A stretch of DNA of 47,452 nt from a virus. Below are positions 7,643-42,948 of this stretch, in pieces. Where the stretch lies: positions 1-47,452 of IMG/VR virus record IMGVR_UViG_3300042314_000634. The stretch is one strand, 5' to 3'. Positions within the stretch are counted from its first letter, which is position 1. Each line of letters opens with the position of its first letter. Under the pieces are notes generated by a model. It was not told where the DNA came from and ran no database searches. It was given only the letters and a program-made list of their open reading frames with translations. Position numbers and translations under genes: made by a program.

Positions 7643-7661
7643 ATTATATTACTTTATTTAA

Positions 7662-10316: not shown

Positions 10317-10347
10317 TTAGTTTACCTTTTTTTTAGTTATGTACGCT

Positions 10348-10357
10348 TATAAATATA
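10348..10357 (-). promoter_or_regulatory. Putative late promoter TATATTTATA
   Basis: An exact motif on the minus strand, 31 nt before the ATG of the collagen-like fibre gene, with a poly-A/T stretch upstream and no recognisable -33 element. Confidence 0.6.
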
Positions 10358-10370
10358 AAGTTTTTTTTTA

Positions 10371-11138: not shown

Positions 11139-11193
11139 ATGTATGGAACGTATTGGTGTTATTTAACAAGAAATATGTAGTATATACTACCTA

Positions 11194-11203
11194 TATAAAT
11201 ATA
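11194..11203 (-). promoter_or_regulatory. Putative late promoter TATATTTATA
   Basis: An exact motif on the minus strand, 55 nt before the ATG at 11138. It lies immediately after the terminator that ends the preceding fibre transcript, which is what a restart site would look like. Confidence 0.6.
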
Positions 11204-11204
11204 T

Positions 11205-11238
11205 AATAAAAAAATAAAACCCTCCAAAATTTGGAAGG
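11205..11238 (-). terminator. Rho-independent terminator
   Basis: On the minus strand, a hairpin with arms CCTTCC/GGAGG extended by AAA/TTT pairs (11221-11238, one bulge) is followed by a T-rich run (GTTTTATTTTTTT). It follows the 11273-11905 gene and precedes the promoter of the next gene. Confidence 0.8.
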
Positions 11239-11272
11239 TCCTATCTCACTTTACCTTTTAATAAATTATTTT

Positions 11273-11905
11273 TTAGAATGTTCCAGCATCTATACCCTCT
11301 TCTAATGCTTGCAATCTACTTGCTACTGAACCAGAGTATGCCAATACATCACCAATACCATATAATGAGCCACTAAAACCATAAGTATCTGTTAGTTCTG
11401 CGAACTTTGTACCATTTTTTCTAAACTCAATTGATGCAGTAGTTGGTGTAATATTATATATTGTACTACCACTATTTTCTAAATAACCAACATAACCCGC
11501 CGTTGGGTCTGTGTTGAAGTCATAATTGTTAGCTGCTGATATAACAACATTTGTTAATTTACTACCATCTCCAACGAATGCTGAAGCGGTAACAGAACCA
11601 CCAAAATCTATATCACCTAGACCAACTATATCACCATTTACATAGATACTACCTGTTACATCCAAATCTTGTCTTACAACAAGCTCACTAAATGAACCAG
11701 TACCTATTATGTTTATATTACCAACAGTATCACTATTAGTAACAACTAACTGCTCTATGCTTTCAGCCGAGCCTGATTTATGAATATACGCTTTACCATC
11801 GTAGGTGTTTAATCCAATCTCACCAACAAAAAGTGTTGATGTAGTTGGTAAACTGCCTGATACGGCGGAGCGTCTTTGTAATATTTTTTGATTTGGTACA
11901 GCCAT
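11273..11905 (-). CDS. Fibre/neck structural protein, paralogue of 10371-11138
   Basis: A 210-residue protein sharing its layout with the next gene downstream. It has a docking-like N-terminus (ILQRRSAVSGSLPTTSTLFVGEIGLNTYDGKAYIHKSGSAESI), then serine/threonine-rich beta repeats (TGSIYVNGDIVGLGDIDFGGSVTAS), then the same kind of C-terminal segment (NNYDFNTDPTAGYVGYLENSG). The pairing of N- and C-terminal similarity suggests that the two genes arose by duplication. No TATATTTATA motif precedes it. It follows a possible terminator and is probably expressed by read-through from the long fibre gene or from a promoter I cannot see. Likely a virion structural protein. The exact position is unknown. 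Confidence 0.6.
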   Translation of the reverse strand: MAVPNQKILQRRSAVSGSLPTTSTLFVGEIGLNTYDGKAYIHKSGSAESIEQLVVTNSDTVGNINIIGTGSFSELVVRQDLDVTGSIYVNGDIVGLGDIDFGGSVTASAFVGDGSKLTNVVISAANNYDFNTDPTAGYVGYLENSGSTIYNITPTTASIEFRKNGTKFAELTDTYGFSGSLYGIGDVLAYSGSVASRLQALEEGIDAGTF

Positions 11906-11935
11906 TTTATTTTTTATTTTATCAGTTCATTTATT

Positions 11936-11970
11936 TACTAAAAATAACCCCCCATTTCTGGGAGGTTATT
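11936..11970 (-). terminator. Possible terminator after the long fibre gene
   Basis: On the minus strand, an 11-bp stem AATAACCTCCC/GGGGGGTTATT (11943-11970, one G-T pair) is followed by TTTTTAGTAAA. The T-run is short, so termination may be partial and feed the next gene. Confidence 0.65.
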
Positions 11971-11975
11971 TGTTA

Positions 11976-22604: not shown

Positions 22605-24251
22605 TTAGATATTAGCCAAACCTTCAACCAATACTTTACCGTAAAATTCTGGACGAACCAATTTTTTAGCGTAACGAGTCATAACACCTCTACGTGGAGT
22701 GAAGTTATCTGGGTCGTACACCAATGGAGTCAAGATTAAAGGTACATATGGAGCATAAACCGCACCAGTCTCAAGGAAGTTATTTCCTTTGTAACCCAAT
22801 AAGATTTCGTTAGAAGTCATGTAAGGGTTTTTGTAAACTGTGTAACGATTAGCCAAAGAACCAACTTGAGTTACACCAGCTGCGAATTGTTTAGCATCTT
22901 TATCAGCGTTTACAGAGAAAGCTGGGATTGATTCTAAAATAGTACAAACGTCTGGAGAAGCAACGATAAAGTTAGCTCCACCACGCATTGTCAATTGGTG
23001 AATCTTGTTAGATACTTTGTTTAATTTAGTTCCTAAAGTCTGGAACCAAGTGTTTTTAGTGTAAGCACTTGCGTTAGATGAATCTGCATCAATTGCAAAT
23101 TCTGAACCATTCCACTCATTACCAATCTTTGTAGACCAGTATTCAGTAGTTAATGCGTTTCCTTTCAATAAATCCAAGATTTCCAAGTCAATCTCTAATG
23201 AGATATATTCAGATAACATAGCAGTCAATTCAGCTTCTGCATCAATTGAGTGGTAAGCGTTCAAATCTTGTGCCAATTCTGGAGTCCAAACTGCTTTCAA
23301 CTTACGAGTTTTAGCAACGATTGCCTCTGATTTCAATTCTAAATCTACTTGAGGAATGTTCAAGTTAGTTCCACCTGATGGGTTGTTGATAGGGTCTCTA
23401 TCTTCGAAATCACCACGAGATGTTGCAGTTGGCTGTACAGAATATACTAAACCAATAGTTGCAGCAGTTGAACCTGAAGCCAATACTGATGAACTTACGA
23501 TTAATGATACAGTACCATTAGAAGAGTAAGTAGTCAATGCTGGGTAGTAAGTGTTGATTGAACCAGAAGTTCCACCTTGTAATGAACCAGATACATAGAA
23601 TGAACGTACTGCGTTAGTGTCAGCAGATAATGCTGCAACTGAAGCAGATGTTAAAGTAATTTTGTACAAGTTACCAGCAGCAACTGAAGCCGATAAAGAT
23701 GAATCAAAATTGATGTCAGATAAAGCAGTAACTTTAGCTGCAGTAGCGAAAGATACGATAGCAGAATTATCATTTACTGAATATGCATAACGTCCTTCAC
23801 CGTAAAGACCATTTTGAGCTACGTTAGTTGAACCTAACTTCGCTGCAGATGTTCCACCATATAATGATGTGCTAGATGCATCACCATATCCTTTTCCAGT
23901 TGTACCATATTTGAAATCCATGTAGAAAATCAAACCTGATGGTAAGTTCATTGGTTGTACCGAAACAAATTCCTTTGCTGCGATTTCACCGAATATACGG
24001 CGAACCAATGGTAAAGCTACACCAGACCATTCTTCAGAACCACCTGAAAAACCTGTCTTTGTAGTCTCATCTAATAATTGTTTTGCTTGGTTTTCTAAAA
24101 TTACAGCCATTCCGTGCTCTTCAGTTGCACCAGTTAAGCCTTCTAATAAACCAGTTTTTTCCCACTTGTTTTTCAACCCGCGAGTTTGCTCAAGCATAAC
24201 CGCAGTTGGGTTTTTGCCTTCCATTAATTTGTTTAAATTAAATTGTGCCAT
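22605..24251 (-). CDS. gp23: Major capsid protein, gp23-like
   Basis: A 548-residue protein with the T4 gp23 layout. The N-terminal 65 residues (LMEGKNPTAVMLEQTRGLKNKWEKTGLLEGL...) are helical and contain ENQAKQLLDE, a likely prohead-protease cut region. The HK97-fold body follows: WSGVALPLVRRIFGEIAAKEFVSVQPMNLPSGLIFYMDFKYG, then LKSEAIVAKTRKLKAVWTPELAQDLNAYHSIDAEAELT, cut here only by commas in my reading. The end is TRYAKKLVRPEFYGKVLVEGL. It forms the icosahedral shell after scaffold removal. It sits 19 nt after the scaffold gene on the same transcript, and an AAGGA 10 nt before the ATG is one of the better ribosome-binding sites in the window. Confidence 0.95.
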   Translation of the reverse strand: MAQFNLNKLMEGKNPTAVMLEQTRGLKNKWEKTGLLEGLTGATEEHGMAVILENQAKQLLDETTKTGFSGGSEEWSGVALPLVRRIFGEIAAKEFVSVQPMNLPSGLIFYMDFKYGTTGKGYGDASSTSLYGGTSAAKLGSTNVAQNGLYGEGRYAYSVNDNSAIVSFATAAKVTALSDINFDSSLSASVAAGNLYKITLTSASVAALSADTNAVRSFYVSGSLQGGTSGSINTYYPALTTYSSNGTVSLIVSSSVLASGSTAATIGLVYSVQPTATSRGDFEDRDPINNPSGGTNLNIPQVDLELKSEAIVAKTRKLKAVWTPELAQDLNAYHSIDAEAELTAMLSEYISLEIDLEILDLLKGNALTTEYWSTKIGNEWNGSEFAIDADSSNASAYTKNTWFQTLGTKLNKVSNKIHQLTMRGGANFIVASPDVCTILESIPAFSVNADKDAKQFAAGVTQVGSLANRYTVYKNPYMTSNEILLGYKGNNFLETGAVYAPYVPLILTPLVYDPDNFTPRRGVMTRYAKKLVRPEFYGKVLVEGLANI

Positions 24252-25858: not shown

Positions 25859-26221
25859 TTACTTTTGTTCTACTTTAGTATAACGTTGATTTTTATCGTT
25901 TTGTATTCTTTTCTTTGTTGATTTTACTTTATCATAAGATGGAGCACCATTGATATATCCACCAGGTAGGGATAAACCTACACCTGCACCACCAGGAAAC
26001 CCATCTTCTTTAACCATAGATTCTGAACAACCGATTGCATCATAGAACTTACTATAATCAAACTTTATTCCTTCGTCTTTAAATTGTCTTACCATATTAT
26101 CAGCAATAGATTTACGATTTTCTACATCTAATACTTGATTTAGAATATCAACAATCCCATCTACCATTTGGTATTCGTTATTATCTAACTTTTCTTTTAA
26201 TATGGTTTTTAACTTTATCAT
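25859..26221 (-). CDS. Probable internal head protein with targeting N-terminus (a)
   Basis: A 120-residue protein starting MIKLKTILKEKLDNNEYQ. The first ten residues match the MIKLKxLLxE pattern shared by five consecutive genes, with a gp21-style cut site (L-x-E) after Glu10. The body is helical (MVDGIVDILNQVLDVENRK, IADNMVRQFKDEGIKFDYSKFYDAIG), then a glycine/proline-rich tail (DGFPGGAGVGLSLPGG). It is coupled to the upstream gene by TAATG. By analogy with T4 internal proteins it may be packaged in the prohead and processed. What it does inside the head or the cell is unknown. Confidence 0.55.
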   Translation of the reverse strand: MIKLKTILKEKLDNNEYQMVDGIVDILNQVLDVENRKSIADNMVRQFKDEGIKFDYSKFYDAIGCSESMVKEDGFPGGAGVGLSLPGGYINGAPSYDKVKSTKKRIQNDKNQRYTKVEQK

Positions 26222-26616
26222 TATAGTTTCTTTAATAAAGTATCCATATCAATTTCAAATGCGTAACCTGCACCACTATATCTTTTATCTGCAATAACTT
26301 TCAATCCTAATTTCTTTTCTAAACGGATTTGAACTAATGATAAGAAATCATCTTCTCCACCATTACCTAATTTAGATATTACATTTTCAATTTTTGATTT
26401 ATCTTTTATAGATTTTGGAATTAAAACAATTTTACCATTATTTGAGGATGCCATAAACTCAACACCACTTGCTTGCGCAAAATCTAACTTTGTAGTTGCT
26501 TCTTCTATTACCTCTTCTTTGACCTGTGATTTGAATGCAGTATGGTATGGATTAGAATAAACAACTCCTTGCTCAAACTTACCATATCCTTTAACCAAAT
26601 CCGTTAGCTTTATCAT
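26221..26616 (-). CDS. Probable internal head protein with targeting N-terminus (b)
   Basis: I start this at the ATG at 26614-26616, which overlaps the upstream stop as TAATG and restores the shared N-terminus MIKLTDLVKGYGKFEQGVVY, giving 131 residues. The targeting pattern is weaker here: there is no Glu at position 10. The body has NPYHTAFKSQVKEEVIEEAT, then a small alpha/beta domain with ASSNNGKIVLIPKSIKDKSKIENVIS and RYSGAGYAFEIDMDTLL. No catalytic signature is visible. It belongs to the head-assembly operon and is probably prohead-associated. Function unknown. Confidence 0.5.
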   Translation of the reverse strand: MIKLTDLVKGYGKFEQGVVYSNPYHTAFKSQVKEEVIEEATTKLDFAQASGVEFMASSNNGKIVLIPKSIKDKSKIENVISKLGNGGEDDFLSLVQIRLEKKLGLKVIADKRYSGAGYAFEIDMDTLLKKL

Positions 26617-27170
26617 TATCCTATATAGCAATTAAGTTCGTATCCGTTTTTCATTCCGTATACCTGAATATGTAATTGTTTGTTTGATGGTTTTCCACCT
26701 TTAGTCAATTCAACCGATACTTTATTAGTCTTTCCTTCCGATGGTTTACGAGGTCCCATTCCTATCTTTCTAAATGAGTCATCATCATCTACCATATATC
26801 CTCTCTTCAAAGCGTATTCTTTTGCAGTTTGGATTGCTTCAGTATAAGATTTGTGATATACTTTTAAATCGTTTGCTTCGTTCAAAGACTCTACTACAAT
26901 TACCATTTGGTCTTTTTGTGGAATTGTATATTTTTTATTTCTTTTCCACGGAGTTAAAATTGCGTTACCTTCTGCATCTTTACCTACTACTTTTGATAAA
27001 TACGATTGTCCGATATTTTTAAAATCATTAGCGTTCTTTCCTACCCAAACATAATCTCCGTTTTTGGCGTTTTTCTCAAAATCAGAAACATTGTTGTATT
27101 GTTTTTTGATTTTCATTTGACCATTGGAGTCAAACTTTATTTCGCTTAATAATTCTTTTAGCTTTATCAT
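26616..27170 (-). CDS. Probable internal head protein with targeting N-terminus (c)
   Basis: A 184-residue protein starting MIKLKELLSEIKFDSNGQMK. LLSE at residues 7-10 is a good gp21-type cleavage site. A second candidate, SLNE, lies near residue 97, dividing the protein into a lysine-rich N-terminal half and a compact C-terminal domain. That domain has YTEAIQTAKEYALKRGYMVDDDD, IGMGPRKPSEGKTNKVS, and KQLHIQVYGM then ELNCYIG. It looks like a conserved small domain seen, from memory, in prohead regions of other marine T4-like phages. Function unknown. Confidence 0.55.
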   Translation of the reverse strand: MIKLKELLSEIKFDSNGQMKIKKQYNNVSDFEKNAKNGDYVWVGKNANDFKNIGQSYLSKVVGKDAEGNAILTPWKRNKKYTIPQKDQMVIVVESLNEANDLKVYHKSYTEAIQTAKEYALKRGYMVDDDDSFRKIGMGPRKPSEGKTNKVSVELTKGGKPSNKQLHIQVYGMKNGYELNCYIG

Positions 27171-27171
27171 C

Positions 27172-27681
27172 TTATTTTTGTGCTCTTAAATCTGCTAAAT
27201 CATCTGAACCAATATCACCATCTTTATCAACATCTAATTTGTGTTGATTTCCAACTAACTTTTCGTTACGGATACCTAATCTTTGATTTACTTCTTCTTC
27301 ACTTAATTCACTAACACCATAGTATCTACCTATAATGTGTCCCATATCTTCGTATAGGTTTTCCATTTGTGAATGTAATGATTTTGCTTCGTTAGCAATC
27401 TTTTCGAATTGAGATGATAGTTTCCCTAGCTCATTCATATTTCGTTTGACTGTGCTCTCGTCAAAGTGATTACCAGCTTCTTTATTAGCGAACTCACTAG
27501 CTGCATCTGTGATTGCACCCAATGTTTCAGCGATTTGTGCCAAATCATTTTCATTCTTTAACTTTGGTCCAAATGAACCATAAGTAGAAATGATTTCTAA
27601 AAAGTGTCTTCTTGCTTCGTTGCTTAAAGTTTGTTTAGATGCACCCACACCTTCACCTAATAATTTCTTTAACTTTATCAT
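27172..27681 (-). CDS. Probable internal head protein with EF-hand-like end (d)
   Basis: Starting at the ATG at 27679-27681 gives 169 residues beginning MIKLKKLLGEGVGASKQ, again with an LxE site (LLGE) at residues 7-10. The upstream in-frame start would add eight residues and hide the shared N-terminus. The body is a helical, coiled-coil-like domain (TVKRNMNELGKLSSQFEKI, NEAKSLHSQMENLYEDMG). The C-terminus DVDKDGDIGSDDL has ligands at loop positions 1, 3, 5 and 12 plus Gly6 and Ile8, so it fits a calcium-binding EF-hand loop. It is probably packaged in the head. The calcium role is inferred. Confidence 0.6.
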   Translation of the reverse strand: MIKLKKLLGEGVGASKQTLSNEARRHFLEIISTYGSFGPKLKNENDLAQIAETLGAITDAASEFANKEAGNHFDESTVKRNMNELGKLSSQFEKIANEAKSLHSQMENLYEDMGHIIGRYYGVSELSEEEVNQRLGIRNEKLVGNQHKLDVDKDGDIGSDDLADLRAQK

Positions 27682-27705
27682 ATTATTTTTTATTAAATAT
27701 TTCAA

Positions 27706-28224
27706 TTACATATCTAATTTAACTTTAGACTTAACCATATCTAAATTTTTCATAAATATTTGTACAGCTTCTCCAGCATCTTTAGTTTTTCCAAAAGATT
27801 TTATTATTTCACCTTCTTCAGTACCTAATGTTACATAATATTTATCACCTTCTTTAGCTATACCATATTTTATAGCACCATCTTTTGTAGATAAATAATC
27901 CATTTCGCCAGCATCACTATCTTCATTATCCATTTTAGCATAAATTTCTTTTGGAAGTGCATCCGATATATGGTTTACTTTTTTAGCTGGAGTGGATGTT
28001 GAAGTTGATTTAGGTTCTAATTTTTTTGGTTTACCAAAAATATTTCCGTTTGAAGAACTTCCAGTAGATTTTGTAGATTGCGATTTATCTTTTATAGCAG
28101 TATGTGTACCTGCTTTAATTGCAGAATCTCTATGTTCTTTTGATTTAAATACCGACGTGTTACCTGTTTTCTTATTAGTAGCAGTAAACGTTTCTTCGTT
28201 CAATAATTTCTTTAACTTTATCAT
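27706..28224 (-). CDS. Probable internal head protein with targeting N-terminus (e)
   Basis: With the ATG at 28222-28224 (TAATATG junction with the upstream gene) the protein has 172 residues and begins MIKLKKLLNEETFTATNKK. LLNE at residues 7-10 is a candidate gp21 cut site. The middle is a low-complexity, basic, serine/threonine/lysine-rich stretch (KSQSTKSTGSSSNGN, LEPKSTSTSTPAKK), as expected for a DNA-associated internal protein. The C-terminal part (DGAIKYGIAKEGDKYYVTLGTEEGEII) is a small beta-rich domain. The call as internal protein rests on the N-terminus and operon. Function unknown. Confidence 0.55.
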   Translation of the reverse strand: MIKLKKLLNEETFTATNKKTGNTSVFKSKEHRDSAIKAGTHTAIKDKSQSTKSTGSSSNGNIFGKPKKLEPKSTSTSTPAKKVNHISDALPKEIYAKMDNEDSDAGEMDYLSTKDGAIKYGIAKEGDKYYVTLGTEEGEIIKSFGKTKDAGEAVQIFMKNLDMVKSKVKLDM

Positions 28225-28225
28225 A

Positions 28226-28450
28226 TTATTTTGCTTCAAATTGTTCTATAAGTTTGATTGCCATATCAATATGTTTGATAGCTTCTTTGCTATAAGGTGC
28301 AATGTTATGCTTAACCTCTTTCAATCTATCTAATGATTTTTCACGAGTCATTGCGTGCATTGCTGCTTCTAACAAATCTCTTCTTTCTTGCTCATTAGAT
28401 TTGGCTTTAATCTTATTAGAAGCCATATATTGCGTTATATTAAATGCCAT
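28226..28450 (-). CDS. Small helical prohead-region protein
   Basis: A 74-residue, almost wholly helical protein (MAFNITQYMASNKIKAKSNEQERR, LLEAAMHAMTREKSLDRLKEV, AIKHIDMAIKLIEQFEAK). It lacks the MIKLK N-terminus of the genes that follow. Its location directly after the prohead protease resembles that of small core proteins such as T4 gp67 and gp68, which flank gp21 and gp22, but there is no clear sequence match. A role in the prohead core is inferred from size, charge and position. Confidence 0.5.
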   Translation of the reverse strand: MAFNITQYMASNKIKAKSNEQERRDLLEAAMHAMTREKSLDRLKEVKHNIAPYSKEAIKHIDMAIKLIEQFEAK

Positions 28451-28457: not shown

Positions 28458-29042
28458 TTAGTTTAATTCTTCTATTATTTGTCTCATTAAATCTTGTGAT
28501 TTACACCACTTTCCACACTCTTCGATTTCTCTTTTCACACTTTCGTTCATAGAAGTTGGTGATAAAAATGCACCATGTGTAGATGGATTAGATACAAAAT
28601 CCCAACCAATTAGTTCAAAATCTTCTTGTACCATTACAGTATTATCTCTCATAGGTTTAACTGAACCCATACCTCTACTGCTAATACCCAAACGGATATT
28701 GTGTTTGAATAATTCTTTTAAGATGTTACCAGATGGAGTTGAAAGAACTTCTACTGTCCCACATAAATCACTACCATCCCACCAAATTTCTTTAATGTTA
28801 TGTGATACATTCTTTAAGTTAATAACGGTTGATTCTGGATGGTCTAATTCACCCAATGCTCTACGCTCTTGTATTAGGGTTTCGTATTTCTTTGCTTCCC
28901 TCTGTAATATGTTAAGAGGATAGATACGATGATTTTGGTTAGGAGCATCTGCTCTTTGCAAAACACCTTTAACCAAAAACTTGCCGTTTTCATCTTCTTG
29001 TAGCCTACCTTCAAAAAGGTTGTGTTCTATTAATAATCCCAT
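28458..29042 (-). CDS. gp21: Prohead core protease, gp21-like
   Basis: A 194-residue serine protease of the herpesvirus-assemblin/gp21 type. GELDHPE supplies His68 and GISSRGMGSV supplies Ser121/Ser122. The strand WWDGSDLCGTVEVLSTPSG and the IGWDFVSNPSTHGAFL segment complete the usual order. T4 gp21 sits in the prohead core, cuts scaffold, capsid and internal proteins after an (I/L)-x-E-type site, then degrades itself. The likely substrates are encoded around it: gp22, gp23 and the MIKLKxLLxE proteins. It starts three bases after the endolysin stop. Confidence 0.9.
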   Translation of the reverse strand: MGLLIEHNLFEGRLQEDENGKFLVKGVLQRADAPNQNHRIYPLNILQREAKKYETLIQERRALGELDHPESTVINLKNVSHNIKEIWWDGSDLCGTVEVLSTPSGNILKELFKHNIRLGISSRGMGSVKPMRDNTVMVQEDFELIGWDFVSNPSTHGAFLSPTSMNESVKREIEECGKWCKSQDLMRQIIEELN

Positions 29043-31861: not shown

Positions 31862-33700
31862 TTATTCGATTATATTTTGCTCATCCATCATACTCTTACC
31901 TTCCATTATCACTTTTGCTCCACCGGATTTTAGAGATTTTTTGATTGATTTGATGAAACTTTCATTGCTTCTACTTAATTTTCTCAACTCTTTATCGCCA
32001 AAAGCATCTCTACCATACATATGGTCATCTTTACCCATACGATTTACATCACGCGGTCTACCCGATGCTTTTGCTTCATTTGGTGATTGACCTAACTTTG
32101 ATTTTAAATCTTGTATAGTTTTTTCAACATCCAATGGCTCTCCTGTTGGGAACTCTTCTTCTGGTTGTTCTTCTTCAGGTTGTTCTTCACCACCTTGTTG
32201 TGGTTGTCCAGCCATCATACCACCTTGCTCTTGCTGTCCTTCTGGTTTACCGGTTGTTTCTAAATTAGTTAATACAAATGTATTTTTAGCATCTTTAACT
32301 AAACCTTTTTTCATATCTTCAACATCATCATCGCTGAAATTGAATACATTCTTATACATCCAATCTTTTGAGATAAGTTTTAAATCACCCATTGTTCTAG
32401 CTAAATCTACTTTAGATGCCCATAATTCAATTTTAGATTGTTCGTAGATTGTATATGGGATAGTTAATGATAATTCAAAATCAGCTAATGTTTCATCCTC
32501 AATACCTTGTGAGTATAAGTGAATGATTGCAATCTTTTCTAATTCAGATGTTACTATTCTTTGAACTCTTTCAATTGTTTTAGCAAATCTCATATCCATA
32601 GCTGCTAATGTAGCTTTTGAATTACCATCTTCTAAAAATCCTAAATGTTGTTTTGGTATTTTTAATGCCGCAAACATTTTATCTTTTAAGTAGTTTATAT
32701 CATCAATAGGAGCATACTCTAAACCATCCAAATTTTCAATAGATGTTCCACTATCATTACCACGAACTGGCAGATAGAAATCTTCCATCAAGTTTTGAAT
32801 GTTATACTTTAAGTTGTACTCACCAGTATCTGCATTAATAATTGGTGCTTTCTTTGATTTGTTGATAATACGTTGAATGTAATTATCAATCTCATTTGTA
32901 GGAATGTTACCCACATCAATTTTGTAGATACGCTTTTGTGGTGCTCTTGATATACGATGTATAATCATTGCATCTTCCATCAATGTAATTTGTTTCCACA
33001 ATCTTCTTGCACTTTCTAACATAGATTTACCATAAGGTAAAAAGTTAGTATCAGTCAACATACGAAAGTGAGCAATCTCATAGTTTTCGTATTCTGTTTT
33101 TTGTCCAGCTACATAAAGTGATTTAGTTGCTAATGGAGTATGAACGAATTTAACTGCTTGCCAATTGTTTGGGTCAAATCCTTCAACACGAGTAATCTCA
33201 TAAACTGAAAGTGGTTGGATACCAACTACACCTAACTCTTCTGCAATCTCAATATGTAAAAAGTGGTCACCATATTTAACCAAACTTCTTACCCAAGGGA
33301 ATAAATTAAATTCAACATTTATAATATCGTAGAATAAGTTTTCTAATATGGATTTTATTTGTTCGTTATTTGTTCTAACTTCTAATACCTTTCCGTATTC
33401 GTTTTTAGATGTAGACTCTTCTGCGTAAATATCCAATGCAGCACCAATGATTGGGTCAGCATCCATAGCATCATAATCTCTAAAAAGTTCTTGTCGTATT
33501 TGTTGGTAAGCAAGATAGTTCTCATAGGTATTATTCATAGCCGATGAGTGTAATCTCATATATCTATCACGTAGATTGGTAGCAATTGCTTGCGTTTCAT
33601 CGTAATCAATTACCTTTAACTTATTCCCTTGCTTTCTTACGATTACCGATGTGGAGAATAGTTTGTTTAACCTACCAAAAAATGATTTATCTGTTGCCAT
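31862..33700 (-). CDS. gp20: Portal vertex protein, gp20-like
   Basis: A 612-residue protein that follows T4 gp20 closely in its core: FLPYGKSMLESARRLWKQ, LMEDAMIIHRISRAPQKRIYKIDVGNIP, AKKAPIINADTGEYN-like stretch, then MEDFYLPVRGNDSGTSIENLDG and DDINYLKDKMFAALKIPKQHLGF. Portals form a dodecamer at one vertex. They start prohead assembly, dock the terminase and pass DNA. The C-terminal 110 residues are a low-complexity Gln/Glu/Gly region (GQQEQGGMMAGQPQQGG, then EEQPEEEFP) followed by a basic helix, an extension relative to the T4 core. No clear promoter motif lies directly upstream. Confidence 0.95.
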   Translation of the reverse strand: MATDKSFFGRLNKLFSTSVIVRKQGNKLKVIDYDETQAIATNLRDRYMRLHSSAMNNTYENYLAYQQIRQELFRDYDAMDADPIIGAALDIYAEESTSKNEYGKVLEVRTNNEQIKSILENLFYDIINVEFNLFPWVRSLVKYGDHFLHIEIAEELGVVGIQPLSVYEITRVEGFDPNNWQAVKFVHTPLATKSLYVAGQKTEYENYEIAHFRMLTDTNFLPYGKSMLESARRLWKQITLMEDAMIIHRISRAPQKRIYKIDVGNIPTNEIDNYIQRIINKSKKAPIINADTGEYNLKYNIQNLMEDFYLPVRGNDSGTSIENLDGLEYAPIDDINYLKDKMFAALKIPKQHLGFLEDGNSKATLAAMDMRFAKTIERVQRIVTSELEKIAIIHLYSQGIEDETLADFELSLTIPYTIYEQSKIELWASKVDLARTMGDLKLISKDWMYKNVFNFSDDDVEDMKKGLVKDAKNTFVLTNLETTGKPEGQQEQGGMMAGQPQQGGEEQPEEEQPEEEFPTGEPLDVEKTIQDLKSKLGQSPNEAKASGRPRDVNRMGKDDHMYGRDAFGDKELRKLSRSNESFIKSIKKSLKSGGAKVIMEGKSMMDEQNIIE

Positions 33701-33735: not shown

Positions 33736-33803
33736 TTTTACTCATTTTTACCACTTTTAGGTGTTTAGTGGTAATTTATAGTTTTACTCAATTTTACCAC
33801 TTT
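33736..33803. repeat. Short direct repeat with inverted repeat before portal gene
   Basis: The sequence around TTTTACTCA(t/a)TTTTACCACTTT occurs at 33736-33757 and again at 33781-33803, where it overlaps the 3' end of the upstream gene. An 8-bp inverted repeat (TTACCACT at 33748-33755, AGTGGTAA at 33767-33774) lies within. No T-run follows on the minus strand, so I do not call it a terminator. The intergenic gap here holds no ORF. Confidence 0.6.
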
Positions 33804-34870
33804 CTACAAGACCAATATCTTGCTTTGTGTCTTGGACCAGGTTGGTCACAATTATGTCTAGCTCTAAACGATTTTCTTGCGTTAGGATTAGATTTTCTTA
33901 TTCGCATTGTTTTTTCACCTTTGGATGCTGCAGATGTACCACCATGTCCAAAGTTTACTTTAACAATATTACCTGCTGGATTTTTAACATATACTTTGAA
34001 CTTTTTAACATCCCCACGCGTTGGTTTACCCAATTTCACTTCTCTACCCTGATATTCTGCTTCAAATACACAATTACAATTATCTTCTTTTAATTCGTTT
34101 GTATATCCTTTTAGATATTTGATGAAATCTTCCATGTCATCATCTTCAACATCTAACTCATCATAATCATCTGTGTTATCGTGTCCACATTTATGACAAA
34201 CATATGGAGTTTTTCCACCATCTTCTAAATCCCATTCCCATCCACATTTTTCACATTCTACTGATTGAGTTTCATTTTCATTAACGGGAACACAATTTGG
34301 AACTTGATTTCCACCTTTATCCTTCATTCCCACTTGCTTATATCCATCCCAACAATCTTCACATAATGCATTAGCTTCTCCTTCGTTACAAGTCTTCCAA
34401 CCACCACCTTTTGATTTATAGTTCTTTGCAGCCCAGCCATTCGCATACGCAGATGGATAAACATCAAACTTTGATTTAGCTGCCGATTTAGATGCGGACC
34501 ATTTTGCCGGGTCAGTTGGACAATTTTTTTCTAAAAAAAGATTTAATTTTTCGTAGATATTCATACTTTCCTTTTTTGGTTTTGTAGAAACATATATTGG
34601 TGTTTTACCCTGTCCACTACTACTCTTACCACCTCTATCTGCATCATTTTGTGCTGCTCTTTTTCTTCTAGTTGCACTTTCTTTTTCTTTTTTACTCATT
34701 CCGGCAGCTTTTGATGCTGGAACACATTTTGCATATCCTTTCTTCTCACCCGAAGTGCCGCATGGAGGATGTTTCCCATCAACTTTCTTGCCGATGTTTA
34801 CCCACTTTTCCTTAAACCACTTGCGTAGGTCTTCTTTTACTATATTACGCAATTTTATATTACCATTCAT
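33794..34870 (-). CDS. Multidomain head-region protein with zinc ribbon
   Basis: Starting at the ATG at 34868-34870 gives 358 residues (MNGNIKLRNIVKEDLRKWFK). The N-terminal WVNIGKKVDGKHPPCGTS...CVPASKA...SKKEKESATRRKR block and the later YPSAYANGWAAKNYKSKGGGW segment are short motifs I recall from uncharacterised phage proteins. CEKCGWEW...CHKCGHD (about residues 208-233) is a four-cysteine zinc ribbon. The C-terminus, VKKFKVYVKNPAGNIVKVNFG...RKSFRARHNC...KARYWSCRKW, is a compact basic domain widespread in T4-like phages. Several modules are thus fused in one chain. Placement between terminase and portal suggests a role in packaging or the head. Function unknown. Confidence 0.6.
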   Translation of the reverse strand: MNGNIKLRNIVKEDLRKWFKEKWVNIGKKVDGKHPPCGTSGEKKGYAKCVPASKAAGMSKKEKESATRRKRAAQNDADRGGKSSSGQGKTPIYVSTKPKKESMNIYEKLNLFLEKNCPTDPAKWSASKSAAKSKFDVYPSAYANGWAAKNYKSKGGGWKTCNEGEANALCEDCWDGYKQVGMKDKGGNQVPNCVPVNENETQSVECEKCGWEWDLEDGGKTPYVCHKCGHDNTDDYDELDVEDDDMEDFIKYLKGYTNELKEDNCNCVFEAEYQGREVKLGKPTRGDVKKFKVYVKNPAGNIVKVNFGHGGTSAASKGEKTMRIRKSNPNARKSFRARHNCDQPGPRHKARYWSCRKW

Positions 34871-34878
34871 ATACAATA

Positions 34879-34905: not shown

Positions 34906-36501
34906 CTATCGTAGTAACCAACGCAAGTCTTCAAACTCATCATTTTTACCCGTTTGCATTTTGTATGGGTCATCACCAAATTGGCCGGGTGTGTATAAAG
35001 TATCATAAGATGTTTGTACGAAACCATCAATAGAACGTCTTGTCAAATCAATACCTTCTTGTCTTAAACGGAGTGCAGTATCTCTAATCCACAATCCCAT
35101 TCCTAATGCCATTACCAAGTCATCATTGTATCCTCTTGCTGCTTCGGCTCTACCATTGTGCCAAATAAAGGTAAAGAACTCATCTATCGTTCTTTTACTA
35201 TGGATAATAACACTCATATCTCGCATATAAGTGTCTATCTTTGATATTACTAACGGACGAGTTTTAGATGATATACTAAATCCTGGTACCATTTGCTTTT
35301 CATCTCTGTAAAACTTATTAGTAAATTGAGTATCAATATCTACATACTTAACATCTCTGTTAGACCAGAATAGATTTTTGTAGTTTCTATCTAAACATTG
35401 TTGAATTGTTGTCCAACCAATTGATGCATTATCAATGATTAGTAAAGCATCGTTATATTCGGTTGCCAAATTAATTAGAAAATTACCAAAATCTTTTGGT
35501 TCAATCTTTCCTTTATATTCTGCAACTTGTTCACAGCTTTCAGCATCTATTACGTGGCAGGTAGAATAATCTTCTCCATCACCACGAGCAACGTCAGCAG
35601 TTACTATATAACTTTTTGAATAATTAGGGTCTTCCCAAACCCATAAGTTATTATCAAACCCACGCTTATACATTGGGTCTTTTACATATGCTTCGGTATA
35701 TTTAACTAATAACTCCGGTGCGATTACCGTTGCTCCAGAACTGATAAAGTCACAATCACATTCTTGTGCTGCTCCTTTTTGTCCTAATTGTTTTTCTTGT
35801 TCCTCTCTCCAACTTATATCTCTTTCAGGGTGAACTGTCCAATGGAGTTTAATTGGGTGAAATAAGTTTTCACCATTTTCTGCACCTACCCATATTTGAT
35901 GAAACCAGTTACCAATACCATTTGGTGTAGATAATGCTATACAACTACCACCCGTTGATAAAGTAGATTGTGCCGATGTCCAAATATCTTCAATATAATC
36001 AATAAAAGCTGCTTCATCAAACACCAATAGGGATAGTGCTTCCGAACGTCCTGCATCTGGTTTAGATGAAATTGCTTTGATTTGAGAACCATTCTTTAAT
36101 CGTAGAGATAGTTTATTATCTTCCGATTCTTGTACTCTTAACCATACTGGTAAGAATTGGTTCATTACTCTAACCTTTAATACCAAGTTCTTTGCAACTT
36201 CTTGTTTTGTTGCAATAACCAACACGTTAAAGTCATCGTTGAATATCATTTTCCACAAAGAATATCCAGCTACTAATGTAGATATACCTAATTGACGTGA
36301 TTTTAAAACAACATTAAAGCGATTATCTTTAAAATCATTTAAAACTCCTTCTTGAAAATCGTATAAATCAAATGGAATTTTCCCACGAGTTGGGTGTTGA
36401 ATTTTGCAATACTTGCGCATAAAATAGACAGGGTCTTGTGCACATTTTCTGTATTGCTCTTTTACTGCATCTTGCAGTGATTTTGTTTGATTTGCGGCCA
36501 T
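34906..36501 (-). CDS. gp17: Terminase large subunit, gp17-like
   Basis: A 531-residue packaging motor. Walker A is KSRQLGIST (residues 67-75), Walker B is LLVFDEAAF with Asp162 and Glu163, and the STPNG coupling motif is at 191-195. The RNase H-like nuclease domain starts near residue 298 with IVTADVARGDGEDYS (Asp303), and has LLIIDNASIGWTT and a late DDLVMALGM acidic motif. It cuts concatemeric DNA and drives it into the prohead through the portal. An AAGG about 6 nt before the ATG may help ribosome binding. No recognisable small terminase lies directly upstream, although two unassigned genes do. Confidence 0.95.
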   Translation of the reverse strand: MAANQTKSLQDAVKEQYRKCAQDPVYFMRKYCKIQHPTRGKIPFDLYDFQEGVLNDFKDNRFNVVLKSRQLGISTLVAGYSLWKMIFNDDFNVLVIATKQEVAKNLVLKVRVMNQFLPVWLRVQESEDNKLSLRLKNGSQIKAISSKPDAGRSEALSLLVFDEAAFIDYIEDIWTSAQSTLSTGGSCIALSTPNGIGNWFHQIWVGAENGENLFHPIKLHWTVHPERDISWREEQEKQLGQKGAAQECDCDFISSGATVIAPELLVKYTEAYVKDPMYKRGFDNNLWVWEDPNYSKSYIVTADVARGDGEDYSTCHVIDAESCEQVAEYKGKIEPKDFGNFLINLATEYNDALLIIDNASIGWTTIQQCLDRNYKNLFWSNRDVKYVDIDTQFTNKFYRDEKQMVPGFSISSKTRPLVISKIDTYMRDMSVIIHSKRTIDEFFTFIWHNGRAEAARGYNDDLVMALGMGLWIRDTALRLRQEGIDLTRRSIDGFVQTSYDTLYTPGQFGDDPYKMQTGKNDEFEDLRWLLR

Positions 36502-37838: not shown

Positions 37839-40800
37839 TTAGTAAAATATTCCTAACAATTGATTTAACGATGCAAATGCTCCAGTCATCTTAAATACAT
37901 TACCTTTGTATGTAAATATAATTCCTTCGTTTGGAACTATCTTATCAAATCCACCGATTGAATTTAATCTTTCTAATTCCAATTTCATCTTTTCAATTTG
38001 TGCAGGTGTACCTTCTGCTTTTATTTTATCTATTGTTGTATCTAATCTTTTACGGATTGTTTGTAGTGCTTCGTTTGGAGATGCTGTCAACACCGATTGC
38101 ATGAATTGTAAAACTTCTGCTCCTACACCTAAAAAGATTTCCTCAAATTTCATTAGGTTTTCTTTTGCAATCTTATCTTTACTTTGTTTCTCAATACCAT
38201 CGGCCCATGCTCTTGCTTTCTCATCACCAATCAAATTTATACGGAATGATTTATCACCAAAGGCCCATCTTTTTGTTAAACCTTCAATTTCCAATGATGT
38301 TAAACCTTTAGAACCTTTTTGTATATAAGCTTTCCACCAAGCTTGATGGTAATCAGCTACACCAGCATTATCCGGTAAACTAAACTCACTTTGTAGTTTA
38401 GAAATCTTTGTAAGGAATTTACCTTTTTGTGAACTTAAATTTTCACTTTTTGGTAATTTTACAATTGGAGGTCCTTGTATTACATATTTAGATTGTATAT
38501 GTGCATTTACTTGCTTAATCATACCAGCCAATACACTTTCTGCTCCTTTGATTTGTCCTACTGCGTTTCCAGCTTCATTATATTCTACCGCGTTGTGGAA
38601 TACTAATAAAGCTTGTCCGTATGGAATAACATTTACAGATGTTGGATAAATAACCTCTAAATTCATAAATGCTTTACCATTCATAAATATCTTATCTTTT
38701 TGTGCTTGGGATAATCCTCTAATAGCACTTTCCAAATCCTTCATAGCAAAGTTGTAAGCATCACTTAATGCTCCCCTACCAGCAAACTTTGAAGCCATAC
38801 CAGAAGCATCTAATGCATTTGCTCCTCCGTTTGCCAAATGTCCTTTGTTTCTTGCTGCAATTAATCTACCATTTTTCCAGCTAATTGCTAGAGCTTGTCC
38901 ATCGGTTTTTTCTCTAACAACACCCAATGAACCATCCAATGCTTTACTTACAATGGTTTTTAAATCTTTGAATGTTAGGTTTATATCAGTATCAAATGGA
39001 TGGTTCATATGTCCATAAGCACCACCTTCCATTATTAAACTTTCTTTTACGGATTTTTTAATAGGTTCGTATCCACGATTTTGAGTATCTTTTGTATCAG
39101 TTTGATGACCAGGTTCTTTTTTTCTATTATCATCATCAAAATCTATTGTATCCAATTCAGGTTCATACCCATAATCTGGTGCATATGTTGATGTTTTGTG
39201 ATGGTGATTAAAGTTATTATCGGCAGTTCCGTGAGGTTCGTGGTTTTTTGTATTTATAGCTTCAAACGCACTATGTTTTACTTTGTACCAACCACCACCC
39301 GGTGTTGTAAATAATCTTGCTGGTATTCTAAATGTAGAACCTATTGGTAATTTACTGAAATACTTACTATCTATGTGAACCACTTTTGTAACGAACTCTC
39401 TTGTCTTATTATCTGCACCAATCAATTCAACTTCAATCTTTACAGGTTGTCCACCAATTTTAATTGTTCCACCAAATATACCTTTTGATATTTCATTAAG
39501 TTTAGTTTCAGTTGTATAAACAGGTGTTGATGATTTGAAATCATCTTTTCTCATTATAGTTTTAGCAATCAATTTGTTTGCTTGAACCATAAATGGAATG
39601 TTGATACCTGTTCTTTTATCTTTTACTACAAATTCATTGTATTGTTTTACAAATTCTAAAAACTTTTTCTTATTTTTTGCTAATCTTTTAAAGAAACCAG
39701 TTAGTTCTGCTGGTGATATTTCTTTACCATTACGAGGGTCATTTAATCTTTGGAAAAAATGGTCTGTTTCTTTTCCTAAAACAACATCTTCTGGAGATAA
39801 TTGAGAATCTGCATATTTCTCAACTTTATCCATATCAACCTTTGCCATTTCTTTTAGCTCATTTGGACCTTCCCAATCTTTTTCACTAACCTTACCACTT
39901 TCCTTATCTTTGTTATACCCATCAACTACCTTTGCCCAAACGGTAGCTGGTATAGCACCATTCATTATGTTATCGGCAAGTTGTAATGTAAAGTATTCGA
40001 TGTAAGTTTCATCTGTAATAGTTTCTACACCGGCATTTAATGCTGCTTTTATAACTCCACCAGCTAATACCTCACCCATCATATGTTCAGCAAGGTGTAA
40101 ACCTACACCTGCCATTAGTTTTGTAGGTCCTACTGCAAGTGCGCTGATACCACCCGTCAATAACATACTACCAACAGTCAAACCTACTGTTTTAGCAACA
40201 CCAATCATTGCTTTCTTTTGTTTTTCATCTGGTTTTTTACCAGAGAAAACTGCTTTAAATCCTTCCCCAGCTTCTTTTATTTCGTGTCCTAAATGCTTTG
40301 CTTCTCTAACTACACCTTTTACAATACCATTTGCCTTATCTCCAATCCATTGTCCAACACTACGTCTTTCTTTTGATTGTGGTGCATGTGCTCCTTTGAA
40401 AAATTCTTTTTCTTTTTCACTCCACTTTTTTATTTTTTGACCTATTGCTCTAACTACTGCTTTTGGATTAGATACTGCGGTTTTAGCAACTTTTCCAACC
40501 GATGCTTTATTATCTGTTTCTCCACTTTTTGCAACAGATGGAGATTGTGCTTTTTGTTTAACCTTTTGTAGTTTTTGTCTATCCGAGCCACCCATTTTAG
40601 CAACCAACATCATTGCTGCTTTGTAAGCCGGGTGGTCTCTATCGTAGTTTAATGCAGAACTTACTTTAATATCTTCACCTGTATCTGGATTCTTTACTAA
40701 TTGGTTTAAGATTTGTGGTGAATATCCACTACCTTTTACAGATGCTTCTTTTACAATACCTTCACCATATGAATTATATAATGCTAGATTGACCTGATTT

Positions 40801-41840
40801 ACTTTATCACTCTTTGGGGATTTTTGTCCTTTCTCTATGTTTCCTGGAACTTGTCTTTTATCCATCAAAGCATGAACACGAAGAACTCGCATTGCTTCTT
40901 GTCTTGCAAACTCTACTCTATCCAATTTAAGAGCATCTTTGATACGATATTTCTTACCAGTTGCCGGGTCAGCAATTTCCATATTCATTATGTTGTCCCA
41001 ATCTACCGAGTCTGGTTCATAATCAATATCGCCCTCAATTGTCATTAACTTATCGTAGTATTTAGGGTCTTCAAATATATGGTCTTTTGCAATCTCCGAT
41101 GCTATTCTAATATCAGTAGTGTGTTCCATTTCTGTATTTACACCCTTTTTAAACTCTTTCTTTATAGTATCTAAATCTACTTTATGTTTATCAGCAATTT
41201 GAGCCAACGTCATACCTTTGGATAATCCACCAGGTATAAATTCCTTTTCTTCATTCAATCCTTTATTTAACATTTGGAATACATCTTTATTGTATTTGCC
41301 AAAGAACTTTTGGAATTGTTTTTCTTTTTCATCTGCTGAAAGATTACTACGGAACATATTTCTAACATCCGTTGCTCCAAATGAATTTGATGGTGTTTTA
41401 GAATACACATATCCCTTTGTCATATAACCTTCCATATCCTTATCGTTTTTATAAGGTTTGAAATATTGTCCACCTAAACGCATTGCATCTTTTTCACCTA
41501 ATGCTATAATAAGTGCAGTTGTTGTTTGATTAAAATCACGTAATATTTCTACTGGTTGATATGGGGATTTTACTTGAATGAATTTTGATGGTGAAACACC
41601 AAATACTTTAACTGCAATATCGCGTTTCTCATTAAAAGAAAGTGGTGATTTATTTGAGTCTTGCACATTTGATGTTGCAATATATACATTCTTTGCTCCA
41701 AATACAGAACAAAGATGTTTGTATGTTTTGTAGTGTCCTGCATGAAATGGTTGAAATCTACCCCCAAATATAACTACCTTTTCCTTTACCGATTCAGTCA
41801 GTAAGAAAGTTTCCACTAAATAGTTTGATAATTCATTCAT
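37839..41840 (-). CDS. Giant protein: HxGH nucleotidyltransferase plus ligase-like domain
   Basis: A 1333-residue protein. Residues 21-165 are a cytidylyltransferase/NMN-adenylyltransferase-like domain with GRFQPFHAGH (27-36) and GATDVR (155-160). Next comes a TTDIRIASEIAKDHIFEDPKYY helix region (about 240-265). A glycine-rich hydrophobic region lies near 560-620 (VGLTVGSMLLTGGISALAVG). The last 370 residues carry EKTDGQAL (Lys978), NLEVIYP (Glu1062), NEGIIFTYKG (Glu1305) and VFKMTG (Lys1317), in the order of motifs I, III, IV and V of ATP/NAD-dependent ligases. The N-terminus MNELSNYLVETFLLTE ends in an LxE site. It may be a packaged, ejected enzyme like T4 Alt. Substrates unknown. Confidence 0.65.
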   Translation of the reverse strand: MNELSNYLVETFLLTESVKEKVVIFGGRFQPFHAGHYKTYKHLCSVFGAKNVYIATSNVQDSNKSPLSFNEKRDIAVKVFGVSPSKFIQVKSPYQPVEILRDFNQTTTALIIALGEKDAMRLGGQYFKPYKNDKDMEGYMTKGYVYSKTPSNSFGATDVRNMFRSNLSADEKEKQFQKFFGKYNKDVFQMLNKGLNEEKEFIPGGLSKGMTLAQIADKHKVDLDTIKKEFKKGVNTEMEHTTDIRIASEIAKDHIFEDPKYYDKLMTIEGDIDYEPDSVDWDNIMNMEIADPATGKKYRIKDALKLDRVEFARQEAMRVLRVHALMDKRQVPGNIEKGQKSPKSDKVNQVNLALYNSYGEGIVKEASVKGSGYSPQILNQLVKNPDTGEDIKVSSALNYDRDHPAYKAAMMLVAKMGGSDRQKLQKVKQKAQSPSVAKSGETDNKASVGKVAKTAVSNPKAVVRAIGQKIKKWSEKEKEFFKGAHAPQSKERRSVGQWIGDKANGIVKGVVREAKHLGHEIKEAGEGFKAVFSGKKPDEKQKKAMIGVAKTVGLTVGSMLLTGGISALAVGPTKLMAGVGLHLAEHMMGEVLAGGVIKAALNAGVETITDETYIEYFTLQLADNIMNGAIPATVWAKVVDGYNKDKESGKVSEKDWEGPNELKEMAKVDMDKVEKYADSQLSPEDVVLGKETDHFFQRLNDPRNGKEISPAELTGFFKRLAKNKKKFLEFVKQYNEFVVKDKRTGINIPFMVQANKLIAKTIMRKDDFKSSTPVYTTETKLNEISKGIFGGTIKIGGQPVKIEVELIGADNKTREFVTKVVHIDSKYFSKLPIGSTFRIPARLFTTPGGGWYKVKHSAFEAINTKNHEPHGTADNNFNHHHKTSTYAPDYGYEPELDTIDFDDDNRKKEPGHQTDTKDTQNRGYEPIKKSVKESLIMEGGAYGHMNHPFDTDINLTFKDLKTIVSKALDGSLGVVREKTDGQALAISWKNGRLIAARNKGHLANGGANALDASGMASKFAGRGALSDAYNFAMKDLESAIRGLSQAQKDKIFMNGKAFMNLEVIYPTSVNVIPYGQALLVFHNAVEYNEAGNAVGQIKGAESVLAGMIKQVNAHIQSKYVIQGPPIVKLPKSENLSSQKGKFLTKISKLQSEFSLPDNAGVADYHQAWWKAYIQKGSKGLTSLEIEGLTKRWAFGDKSFRINLIGDEKARAWADGIEKQSKDKIAKENLMKFEEIFLGVGAEVLQFMQSVLTASPNEALQTIRKRLDTTIDKIKAEGTPAQIEKMKLELERLNSIGGFDKIVPNEGIIFTYKGNVFKMTGAFASLNQLLGIFY

Positions 41841-41913: not shown

Positions 41914-42948
41914 TTATTCAAAAATTGCAGAAGCACACGTTCTACATATGGTTTCATAAGATTTTTTTACTAATTCCACATGCTCTTCGTTACCCCAAAA
42001 ATCTGATAATTCTTGGCTTTTAAAATCACCAATTACGATTTCCATATCATAATCATTACAACATAAAAATGCCTTTCCTGCTGCATTTACATGAATCCAA
42101 CCAACAGGTCTACCACCAACTTCTCTACCATTTCCACAACTAACTACTTTTTTAGTTTCATCTCCACTTTGTAAATTACGAATTATAGATGATTTATTAC
42201 TCATTATACTATCTAATTCACCTGCTCTATCTACTAACGATGGAACTGAAAATATTTGCATAGTTGGAAATAATTCTCTTGCTAACTTTTCCTGTGTTGC
42301 CAATTCACCAGTTATTGGGTCTAAATCCATATCCGATGGAAAATCAGGACCTTTTGTTAGCCAACCACCTTTTTCTTCAAAAGAATATTCATTTGCACCG
42401 TTTATTTGAATTGACATTGTTTTATATTGAACCATTAATGGTAAATTATCAATAGCATATTCAATATTTGATATTAATTTATCAAATAATTTAGGATTTA
42501 CTCCTGCTCTTTTACTCCATAATTCTCTTTCAAATGCGGGAACATTTAAGCATATACCGTTTACTACACCTTTATATTTGTTTATTAAATCAACTTTTTC
42601 AGGAGTAAGTGTTGCACCATTTGATAAAACCATAAAACATAATTTGTATTTTTGACATATTTGTAATAATTCTTCAAAATGTGGATACAATAAAATTTCA
42701 TTATAATGTGCAGTATAAAAACCACCAAAACTTTTAGTTACCAAACCATTATCCTTTTCCCTTTCATCTATTAGATTTTTAATGATTTTTTCCAATAGTT
42801 CCGGACTCATTACTTCTCTTCCCTCTTTTGGATTTCCTTTTAAAACAACTGGACAAAACCAACATTTTGCATTACAAACTCCAAATGGGTCTAATTGCAA
42901 CTGATTAATTTTGTATTGTTGAAACTGATTTTGTATGTGTTCTATCAT
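41914..42948 (-). CDS. Radical SAM/SPASM-like enzyme
   Basis: A 344-residue protein. Cys25, Cys29 and Cys32 in VCNAKCWFC form the CxxxCxxC [4Fe-4S] cluster site of radical SAM enzymes. TARHYN-like GFYTAHYNEILLYP and VLSNGATLTPEKV follow the usual barrel order. A C-terminal cysteine-rich region (CGNG...FLCCNDYD...ICRTC) matches a SPASM or twitch domain holding a further cluster. Such enzymes use S-adenosylmethionine radicals to modify peptides or sugars. The location, after two glycosyltransferases in the fibre block, suggests modification of a virion protein or glycan. The substrate is unknown. The start region is duplicated upstream as a decayed repeat. Confidence 0.8.
   Translation of the reverse strand: MIEHIQNQFQQYKINQLQLDPFGVCNAKCWFCPVVLKGNPKEGREVMSPELLEKIIKNLIDEREKDNGLVTKSFGGFYTAHYNEILLYPHFEELLQICQKYKLCFMVLSNGATLTPEKVDLINKYKGVVNGICLNVPAFERELWSKRAGVNPKLFDKLISNIEYAIDNLPLMVQYKTMSIQINGANEYSFEEKGGWLTKGPDFPSDMDLDPITGELATQEKLARELFPTMQIFSVPSLVDRAGELDSIMSNKSSIIRNLQSGDETKKVVSCGNGREVGGRPVGWIHVNAAGKAFLCCNDYDMEIVIGDFKSQELSDFWGNEEHVELVKKSYETICRTCASAIFE

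Follow-up and report, generated by a model that had tools for sequence, protein, structure and literature searches.

What does a phage gain from a single protein of 1333 residues with the motifs of one nucleotidyltransferase at its start and those of another at its end? The gene that raises this question lies on the minus strand at positions 37839–41840 of a 47,452-nucleotide stretch (hereafter the window), positions 1–47,452 of the IMG/VR virus record IMGVR_UViG_3300042314_000634, a 47-kb contig with 33% G+C content. It is a single uninterrupted open reading frame (ORF) running from an ATG at 41840 to a stop at 37839. An earlier note, made from the sequence alone, had described the product as a fusion of an NMNAT-like and a ligase-like enzyme that may be carried in the virion, pointing to GRFQPFHAGH (residues 27–36) and GATDVR (155–160) at one end, KTDG (978–981), NLE (1060–1062), EGIIF (1305–1309) and FKMTG (1316–1320) at the other, and LLTE at residues 13–16. 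Both enzyme assignments held, but the chain is most likely a polyprotein and not a single fusion enzyme. We consider it likely that the gene product is a head-packaged effector polyprotein that would be imported, cut and injected with the DNA, the enzymes at its two ends acting early (Table 1).

Conserved nucleotidyltransferase-like domains at both ends

Residues 24–76 match CTP_transf_like above the Pfam cut-off (E = 5.8e-5; 23.7 bits against a cut-off of 21), and residues 18–141 match phrog_395, named 'cytidyltransferase' in PHROGs. A profile of eleven NMNAT-like members retrieves NadM and NMNAT structures from the PDB (2qjt, 3e-6; 1f9a, 1.3e-5), and the AlphaFold2 model, of high confidence over residues 17–200, finds its best PDB matches in NadD and NadM (Foldseek E = 8.7e-6). 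The HIGH-superfamily signatures GRFxPxHxGH and (S/A)TxxR and a Rossmann-like fold are present in residues 17–200, and the catalytic-type residues G27–P31, H36, T157 and R160 are invariant across 59 NMNAT-like sequences. From these sequence and model matches, residues 17–200 are assigned to the NMNAT-like nucleotidyltransferases, with predicted adenylyltransferase activity.

Residues 939–1333 are named by no family library, and single-sequence searches of Pfam, PHROGs and the PDB returned nothing or chance matches; the domain was therefore placed by its fold and not by its sequence alone. The AlphaFold2 model of this segment (predicted local distance difference test (pLDDT) 90.4, predicted template modelling score 0.85) folds like RNA ligases, the outcome on which the ligase-like call of the earlier note turned. 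The first 17 Foldseek matches in the PDB are RNA ligases and the putative ATP-dependent DNA ligase 3qwu (twice), after which come capping enzymes along with more RNA ligases and DNA ligases; the best solved structures include T4 Rnl2, an archaeal ligase and T4 Rnl1 (E from 6.7e-3, probability up to 0.97). Motifs I (KxDG), III, IV and V occur in the ligase order, and E-K-x-D-G, R997 (the arginine 19 residues downstream of the motif I lysine), E1062, E1305–G1306 and K1317 are invariant in an alignment of 87 sequences reaching down to 25% identity. The Pfam family matched most often by these members is PF09414 (RNA_ligase), a weak profile match (34 of 87 at E ≤ 1, best 9e-4). The window domain shares with T4 Rnl2 and PF09414 the fold, motifs I, III and IV and the first lysine of motif V. 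It differs in having no PF09414 match above the curated cut-off, in a helical insert, some 170 residues long, that splits motif III from motif IV, in a motif V that is only K-x-T rather than K-x-K, an invariant threonine replacing the second lysine of textbook ligases, and in the absence of a C-terminal domain, almost nothing following motif V and neither an OB (oligonucleotide-binding) nor a helical domain being present. We hold with high confidence that the ligase-like motifs are not due to chance and that, on motifs and predicted fold, the domain is a predicted covalent nucleotidyltransferase of RNA-ligase-like type.

Some features count against this part of our reading. The Foldseek E-values are modest, none reaching 1e-3 (TM-score about 0.25), probably because of the helical insert; the single motif V lysine and the missing C-terminal ligase domain make full strand joining uncertain; and a separate gene of RNA-ligase-like type is also present in four of the seven large relatives, in two cases above the cut-off of the family. 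The invariant threonine, the large insert and the abrupt end after motif V would also suit a domain that has lost part of its catalytic function and instead binds nucleotides or acts as a scaffold in packaging or core assembly. This we find unlikely, since all other catalytic motifs stay invariant down to 25% identity and a relative (L021) carries an intein, spread over two adjacent ORFs (6831–10934 and 10994–12169) whose products both match Intein_splicing, exactly between K and TDG of motif I. Inteins typically sit in active sites, and the ligase-like enzyme of this relative would have to be reassembled by trans-splicing.

Purifying selection acts on both ends, with ratios of non-synonymous to synonymous substitution rates (dN/dS) of 0.05–0.11 in the NMNAT-like and 0.04–0.19 in the ligase-like domain. 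This bears on the possibility that the protein is an enzyme of NAD salvage or against NAD depletion, of the phage NadV–NadM type, to which the ligase-like domain is incidental. Phage NAD salvage is known (PMC9503650), NAD restoration as a counter-defence has been described, and the NMNAT fold would fit. However, the two ends are conserved to about the same degree, and a fused Nudix or kinase domain was not observed in the window protein. Moreover, every NadM-bearing phage was reported to have NadV (PMC9503650), whereas a NadV-type phosphoribosyltransferase (PF04095) was found in none of the seven large relatives, whose contigs may be incomplete; this absence lowers the classical salvage reading, which we regard as unlikely.

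Protease-type sites and proposed packaging in the head

The phage is a T4-like water phage, and the polyprotein gene sits in its head and packaging operon, with the large terminase subunit (34906–36501), the portal (31862–33700), a T4-type major capsid protein (22605–24251) and a prohead protease of the T4 gp21 family, which was also found in all seven large relatives. In T4, gp21 cleaves after L/I-X-E, the motif that also closes the short targeting propeptides (capsid-targeting sequences, CTS) of the internal proteins (PMC9026906). The N-terminus of the window protein resembles such a propeptide of 10–20 residues, with LLTE, a predicted cut position after residue 16 and then SV. The earlier note had seen this likeness to packaged internal proteins, and it extends to the relatives, in which [LI]xE stands ahead of the NMNAT core in 52 of 60 distinct complete N-termini, where shuffled sequences would give 41%. 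The polyprotein is thus predicted to begin with a sequence resembling a T4 CTS.

A second site lies where the ligase-like domain begins. As with the N-termini, the significance of the following counts is indicative only, the underlying sequences being related to one another: (L/I)xE directly precedes GGAYG, the domain start, in 115 of 120 distinct upstream contexts (background 10%), and [LIVMF]xE precedes the domain in 180 of 191 ORFs; [LI]xE is also commoner before other modules (phrog_14518, 22 of 29 contexts; DUF5661, 14 of 30). With the same reservation, the density of [LI]xE is 0.41 times expectation inside the ligase-like domain and 1.44 times expectation in the middle regions, against 0.93 and 1.03 for the control motif [LI]xD and 1.22 and 0.95 for [VF]xE. 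The reversed motif was raised in both regions and [LI]xxE also reached 1.35 in the middle, which makes the depletion the more specific of the two signals. Standalone ligase-like genes open with a targeting-like sequence, MIRLRKILNEILLKE or MKFLKSYEEFLNENLILE, each followed by GG, and one relative (L102) retains an internal copy of such a start. The linkers of the polyprotein are predicted to be disordered from their pLDDT.

Counterparts have been detected in virions. Mass spectrometry identified NMNAT or cytidylyltransferase proteins in the cyanophages S-CREM2 (gp154), S-SCSM1 (gp91) and S-SZBM1 (S-SZBM1_140) (PMC10665884, PMC9602691, PMC9146016). Like the window domain these belong to the HIGH superfamily (phrog_395), and the two members checked have CTS-like starts (S-CREM2, MKNFSSFLTE followed by AD; S-SCSM1, MKSFLQFLKE followed by AA); unlike it they are separate proteins of 286–409 amino acids without a ligase-like end, and distant in sequence. 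The virion-borne part of the earlier proposal is therefore supported by the CTS-like N-terminus, the S77 protease in the operon and these counterparts, while its single fused enzyme probably gives way to a polyprotein.

In the mechanism we propose, residues 1–16 would act as a T4-type CTS and bring the chain into the prohead core. The S77 prohead protease would then cut after (L/I)xE at E16 (LLTE/SV) and E938 (IME/GG), and probably at E664 (LKE/MAK) and E783 (LNE/ISK), freeing the NMNAT-like enzyme, the middle modules and the RNA-ligase-like enzyme from G939; the conserved sites, the depletion and enrichment statistics and the standalone homologues argue for this step. By the example of T4 internal proteins and the cyanophage virion proteomes, the pieces may pass into the cell together with the DNA and become active ahead of phage gene expression. 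Family and motifs suggest the chemistry: K978 would attack ATP or NAD to form lysyl-AMP for the joining or repair of nucleic-acid ends, most likely of RNA, and the NMNAT-like piece would transfer AMP to nicotinamide mononucleotide (NMN), to nicotinic acid mononucleotide or to some similar nucleotide, which would help to keep NAD or nucleotides in balance. The NAD theme comes from the NMNAT fold, and the RNA theme from the ligase class and a polymerase domain in one relative (L097, below).

Several observations weigh against packaging and cleavage. The site is absent in 11 of 191 members, mostly with LLLM or LLLC replacing LxE, and the LLL ahead of GGAYG could be a structural strand. The cyanophage virion proteins are only distant kin of the window family, whose packaging and cleavage we infer, and the authors of the virion studies themselves caution about carry-over or contamination in CsCl preparations. 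A cytoplasmic auxiliary metabolic enzyme made late, neither packaged nor cleaved, with (L/I)xE motifs of purely structural meaning, would accommodate the LLLM and LLLC members, as well as virion detection that comes from cyanophage counterparts. It would leave unexplained the CTS-like N-termini on standalone and fused forms, the depletion of [LI]xE in the ligase-like domain and its enrichment in the middle, the presence of CTS-bearing counterparts in cyanophage virions and the position of the gene within the head and packaging operon alongside the S77 protease; we consider it very unlikely.

Table 1 Features of the polyprotein gene and of neighbouring genes in the window
Feature	Position	Strand	Basis
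Whole ORF, 1333 amino acids, putative polyprotein (P0001)	37839..41840	-	ORF, relatives, purifying selection
Predicted CTS, residues 1–16, MNELSNYLVETFLLTE then SV; (L/I)xE site after E16	41793..41840	-	N-termini of relatives; T4 motif
NMNAT-like (HIGH-superfamily) nucleotidyltransferase, residues 17–200	41241..41792	-	Pfam, phrog_395, PDB profile, AlphaFold2 and Foldseek
DUF5661 module, residues 214–269	41034..41201	-	PF18905 E 3.3e-13
Module m1, residues 276–430, two similar short repeats (about 281–320, 375–415)	40551..41015	-	15 loci
Fast-evolving helical module, residues 431–650, with glycine-rich hydrophobic stretch (about 544–570)	39891..40550	-	30 loci
phrog_14518 module, residues 654–790	39471..39881	-	phrog_14518; 22/29 contexts with [LI]xE at start
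Small beta module, residues 790–868	39237..39473	-	AlphaFold2 pLDDT about 89; 26 loci
Linker-type module, residues 868–932, predicted disordered	39045..39239	-	pLDDT mostly <50 over 880–938
Predicted prohead-protease site, I936-M937-E938 then G939-G940	39027..39035	-	Motif counts in relatives
Predicted RNA-ligase-like covalent nucleotidyltransferase, residues 939–1333	37842..39026	-	AlphaFold2, Foldseek, PF09414 in relatives
Motif I KTDG; K978, predicted AMP-accepting lysine	38898..38909	-	K, D, G invariant in 87 sequences
Motifs IV (EGIIF) and V (FKMTG)	37881..37928	-	E, G, K, T, G invariant
Prohead protease, T4 gp21 family (Peptidase_S77), proposed processing enzyme	28458..29042	-	PF03420 E 5.6e-26
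Five consecutive small genes, products starting MIKLK-/MIKLT-type	25859..28239	-	N-termini
360-amino-acid protein, CTS-like start NIKLRNIVKE, DUF5872 and zinc-ribbon-like modules	33794..34876	-	N-terminus, modules

Modular relatives and a recurring pair

A patterned scan of IMG/VR for the C-terminal domain returned at least 573 stretches. Among the loci fetched, both domains occur in a single ORF at 120 and in separate neighbouring genes at 6. In the fused forms (644–1980 amino acids) the NMNAT-like domain lies toward the N-terminus and the ligase-like domain comes last, and between these fixed ends the DUF5661 (whose position shuffles), phrog_14518, small beta, linker and other modules vary in order and presence. 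The architecture is a cassette with fixed ends and an exchangeable middle, and may therefore serve to deliver host-takeover modules. Between the window and one relative (L008), the synonymous divergence dS is 0.03 in the linker and 0.98 in the ligase-like domain, with a sharp boundary near the E/GG junction, a recombination-like pattern, as if modules had been exchanged there.

The first model of residues 1–938, built from a fragment-based alignment, misaligned the short modules and was replaced by one from full N-terminal parts; the middle remained of low confidence even so, and no fold is therefore claimed for the hydrophobic or phrog_14518 modules. The m1 repeats reach a pLDDT of about 80–90. 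The glycine-rich hydrophobic stretch that the earlier note had thought able to enter a membrane does exist (Kyte–Doolittle 19-residue maximum of 1.75 at residues 552–570), but its module (dN/dS 0.22–0.36) is absent from many relatives, and because it is optional, membrane entry as a general feature was judged unsupported. The phrog_14518 module is possibly, on weak grounds, a RegB/RelE-like endoribonuclease, the one basis for this label being a REGB_T4 match below the cut-off (E = 0.0057) in a relative (L040).

Other middles hold recognisable domains. A CCA-adding/poly(A) polymerase head domain (E = 2.9e-29) occupies residues 1041–1250 of the L097 polyprotein (ORF 1663–7212). With respect to the domains typical of polyvalent proteins (ArdC-N, ART, MPTase, PBECR and others), the observations were a GNAT-like domain within the polyprotein of L104, a zincin-like HEMVH motif noted by eye in L021 and the weak RegB match of L040; none is clear in the window protein. 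A 908-amino-acid protein of Flavobacterium phage immuto (L004, 1875–4598), annotated as NMNAT NadR, likewise seems to be multi-module, with two zincin-like HExxH-type motifs (HEMIHH and HEIEHL).

Where the end enzymes are separate, they can still lie close together. In a 429-kb phage (L188) 31 bases separate a standalone ligase-like gene from the gene after it, which has an NMNAT-like domain at its end, and in L191/L192 the two genes are neighbours, each of those in L192 with its own targeting-like start. Between the L192 genes lies a P-loop kinase (7235–8149) that also has a targeting-like start.

Such repeated linkage, in both orders and as neighbours, would be expected if the earlier note's idea held in its strict form, namely that an NAD-dependent ligase-like domain releases NMN, from which the NMNAT-like domain and ATP remake NAD as cofactor recycling. 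The single motif V lysine and the match of one ligase-like member to DNA_ligase_aden (NAD-dependent; E = 0.033) fit as well. Yet fold and profile point to ATP-type RNA ligases, no NMN-binding domain Ia was recognised, and physical coupling would be lost if the chain is cut apart. Such recycling seems to us quite unlikely. KptA, sought as a possible NAD-using partner in RNA repair, was not found in seven relatives.

A parallel partnership involves DUF6267 (PF19782). In S-PM2d138 it (Pfam match at E = 1.6e-111) is fused to an NMNAT-like domain in the reverse order to the window protein; in P-HM1 (gp161) and S-8S53 its gene precedes the cytidyltransferase (NMNAT-like) gene; and in Methylophilales phage Melnitz-1 (gp15) the two genes lie two apart, both with targeting-like starts. 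In many other cyanophages the two matches are far apart, and the linkage is therefore not universal. DUF6267 has the motif order KWDG, QGD, EGFV and K, with QGD as motif III against NLE in the window. PF19782 has no Pfam match in the window protein or any listed family member, and, compared as profiles, the ligase-like family and DUF6267 barely align, with a similarity that is collinear but borderline (P = 0.022); in a structural search of BFVD, the window ligase-like model matches the S-PM2 protein A0A0M6VVW4 (E = 1.1e-4). As the profile comparison is borderline, we call it probable that DUF6267 is ligase-like and homologous to the window domain. Somewhat less firmly than for the packaged polyprotein itself, we lean towards these being true head polyproteins, with one CTS, portable (L/I)xE junctions, several injected effectors and a conserved NMNAT-like/RNA-ligase-like pair, of whose injected ligase-like enzyme DUF6267 would be a second, independent version. 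No mention of DUF6267 was found in the literature searched.

Relation to known packaged proteins and neighbouring genes

T4 internal head proteins (IPI–III and Alt; PMC9026906) resemble the window family in a targeting-like N-terminus that is short and closes with (L/I)xE, a gp21-family protease in the same operon and predicted ejection with the DNA. They differ in being single small proteins or one enzyme, whereas the window family forms a chain of 640–1980 amino acids with sites between modules and a ligase-like end. Polyvalent proteins (Iyer et al. 2017, PMC5512222) are also very large and multidomain, with shuffled conflict-related domains and predicted delivery with DNA; the window family is similarly large and phage-borne, with several shuffling domains and predicted co-delivery, and is set apart by its two conserved end enzymes, T4-type CTS and prohead-protease-type sites. 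It is most likely a head-packaged polyprotein that combines features of both groups. T4 internal proteins, polyvalent proteins and NMNATs in virions have all been described before; the literature searched contained no chain that combines them, with protease-type sites and, at its end, an RNA-ligase-like domain that had gone unrecognised.

The previously unexplained NMNAT-like proteins of cyanophage virions thereby gain a conserved partner, a ligase-like enzyme unnamed in the libraries searched. In hundreds of uncultured aquatic phages the two recur together, either fused, fused in reverse or as neighbouring genes. DUF6267, present in hundreds of cyanophage records, gains a predicted fold. On this view many aquatic phages may inject enzymes of nucleotide and RNA metabolism ahead of any gene transcription, and the L/I-x-E junctions offer a simple rule by which further large phage proteins could be interpreted as chains of cargo. 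The central claims can be tested in isolates such as Microcystis phage Mel-JY01, a cultivated relative whose gene is of the fused form (WWT39297.1) and has IIAE ahead of GGLGGHMNHPF at the predicted cut.

Other genes of the operon may share the packaging route. Four of the five consecutive small genes have LxE at the expected place, and the first shares a module with 17 polyprotein ORFs; judged by their N-termini, their products are probably further head-packaged proteins. The 360-amino-acid protein resembles by eye S-CREM2 gp160, a virion-detected protein. Immediately upstream of the polyprotein gene is a Radical SAM/SPASM protein (41914–42948). Near the tail fibre genes, a sulfotransferase and an adenylylsulfate-kinase-like gene (5312–6133 and 7662–8090) suggest phage-encoded sulfation, and beyond the tail genes (715–4679) lie glycosyltransferase family 2 genes and a 2OG-Fe(II) oxygenase.

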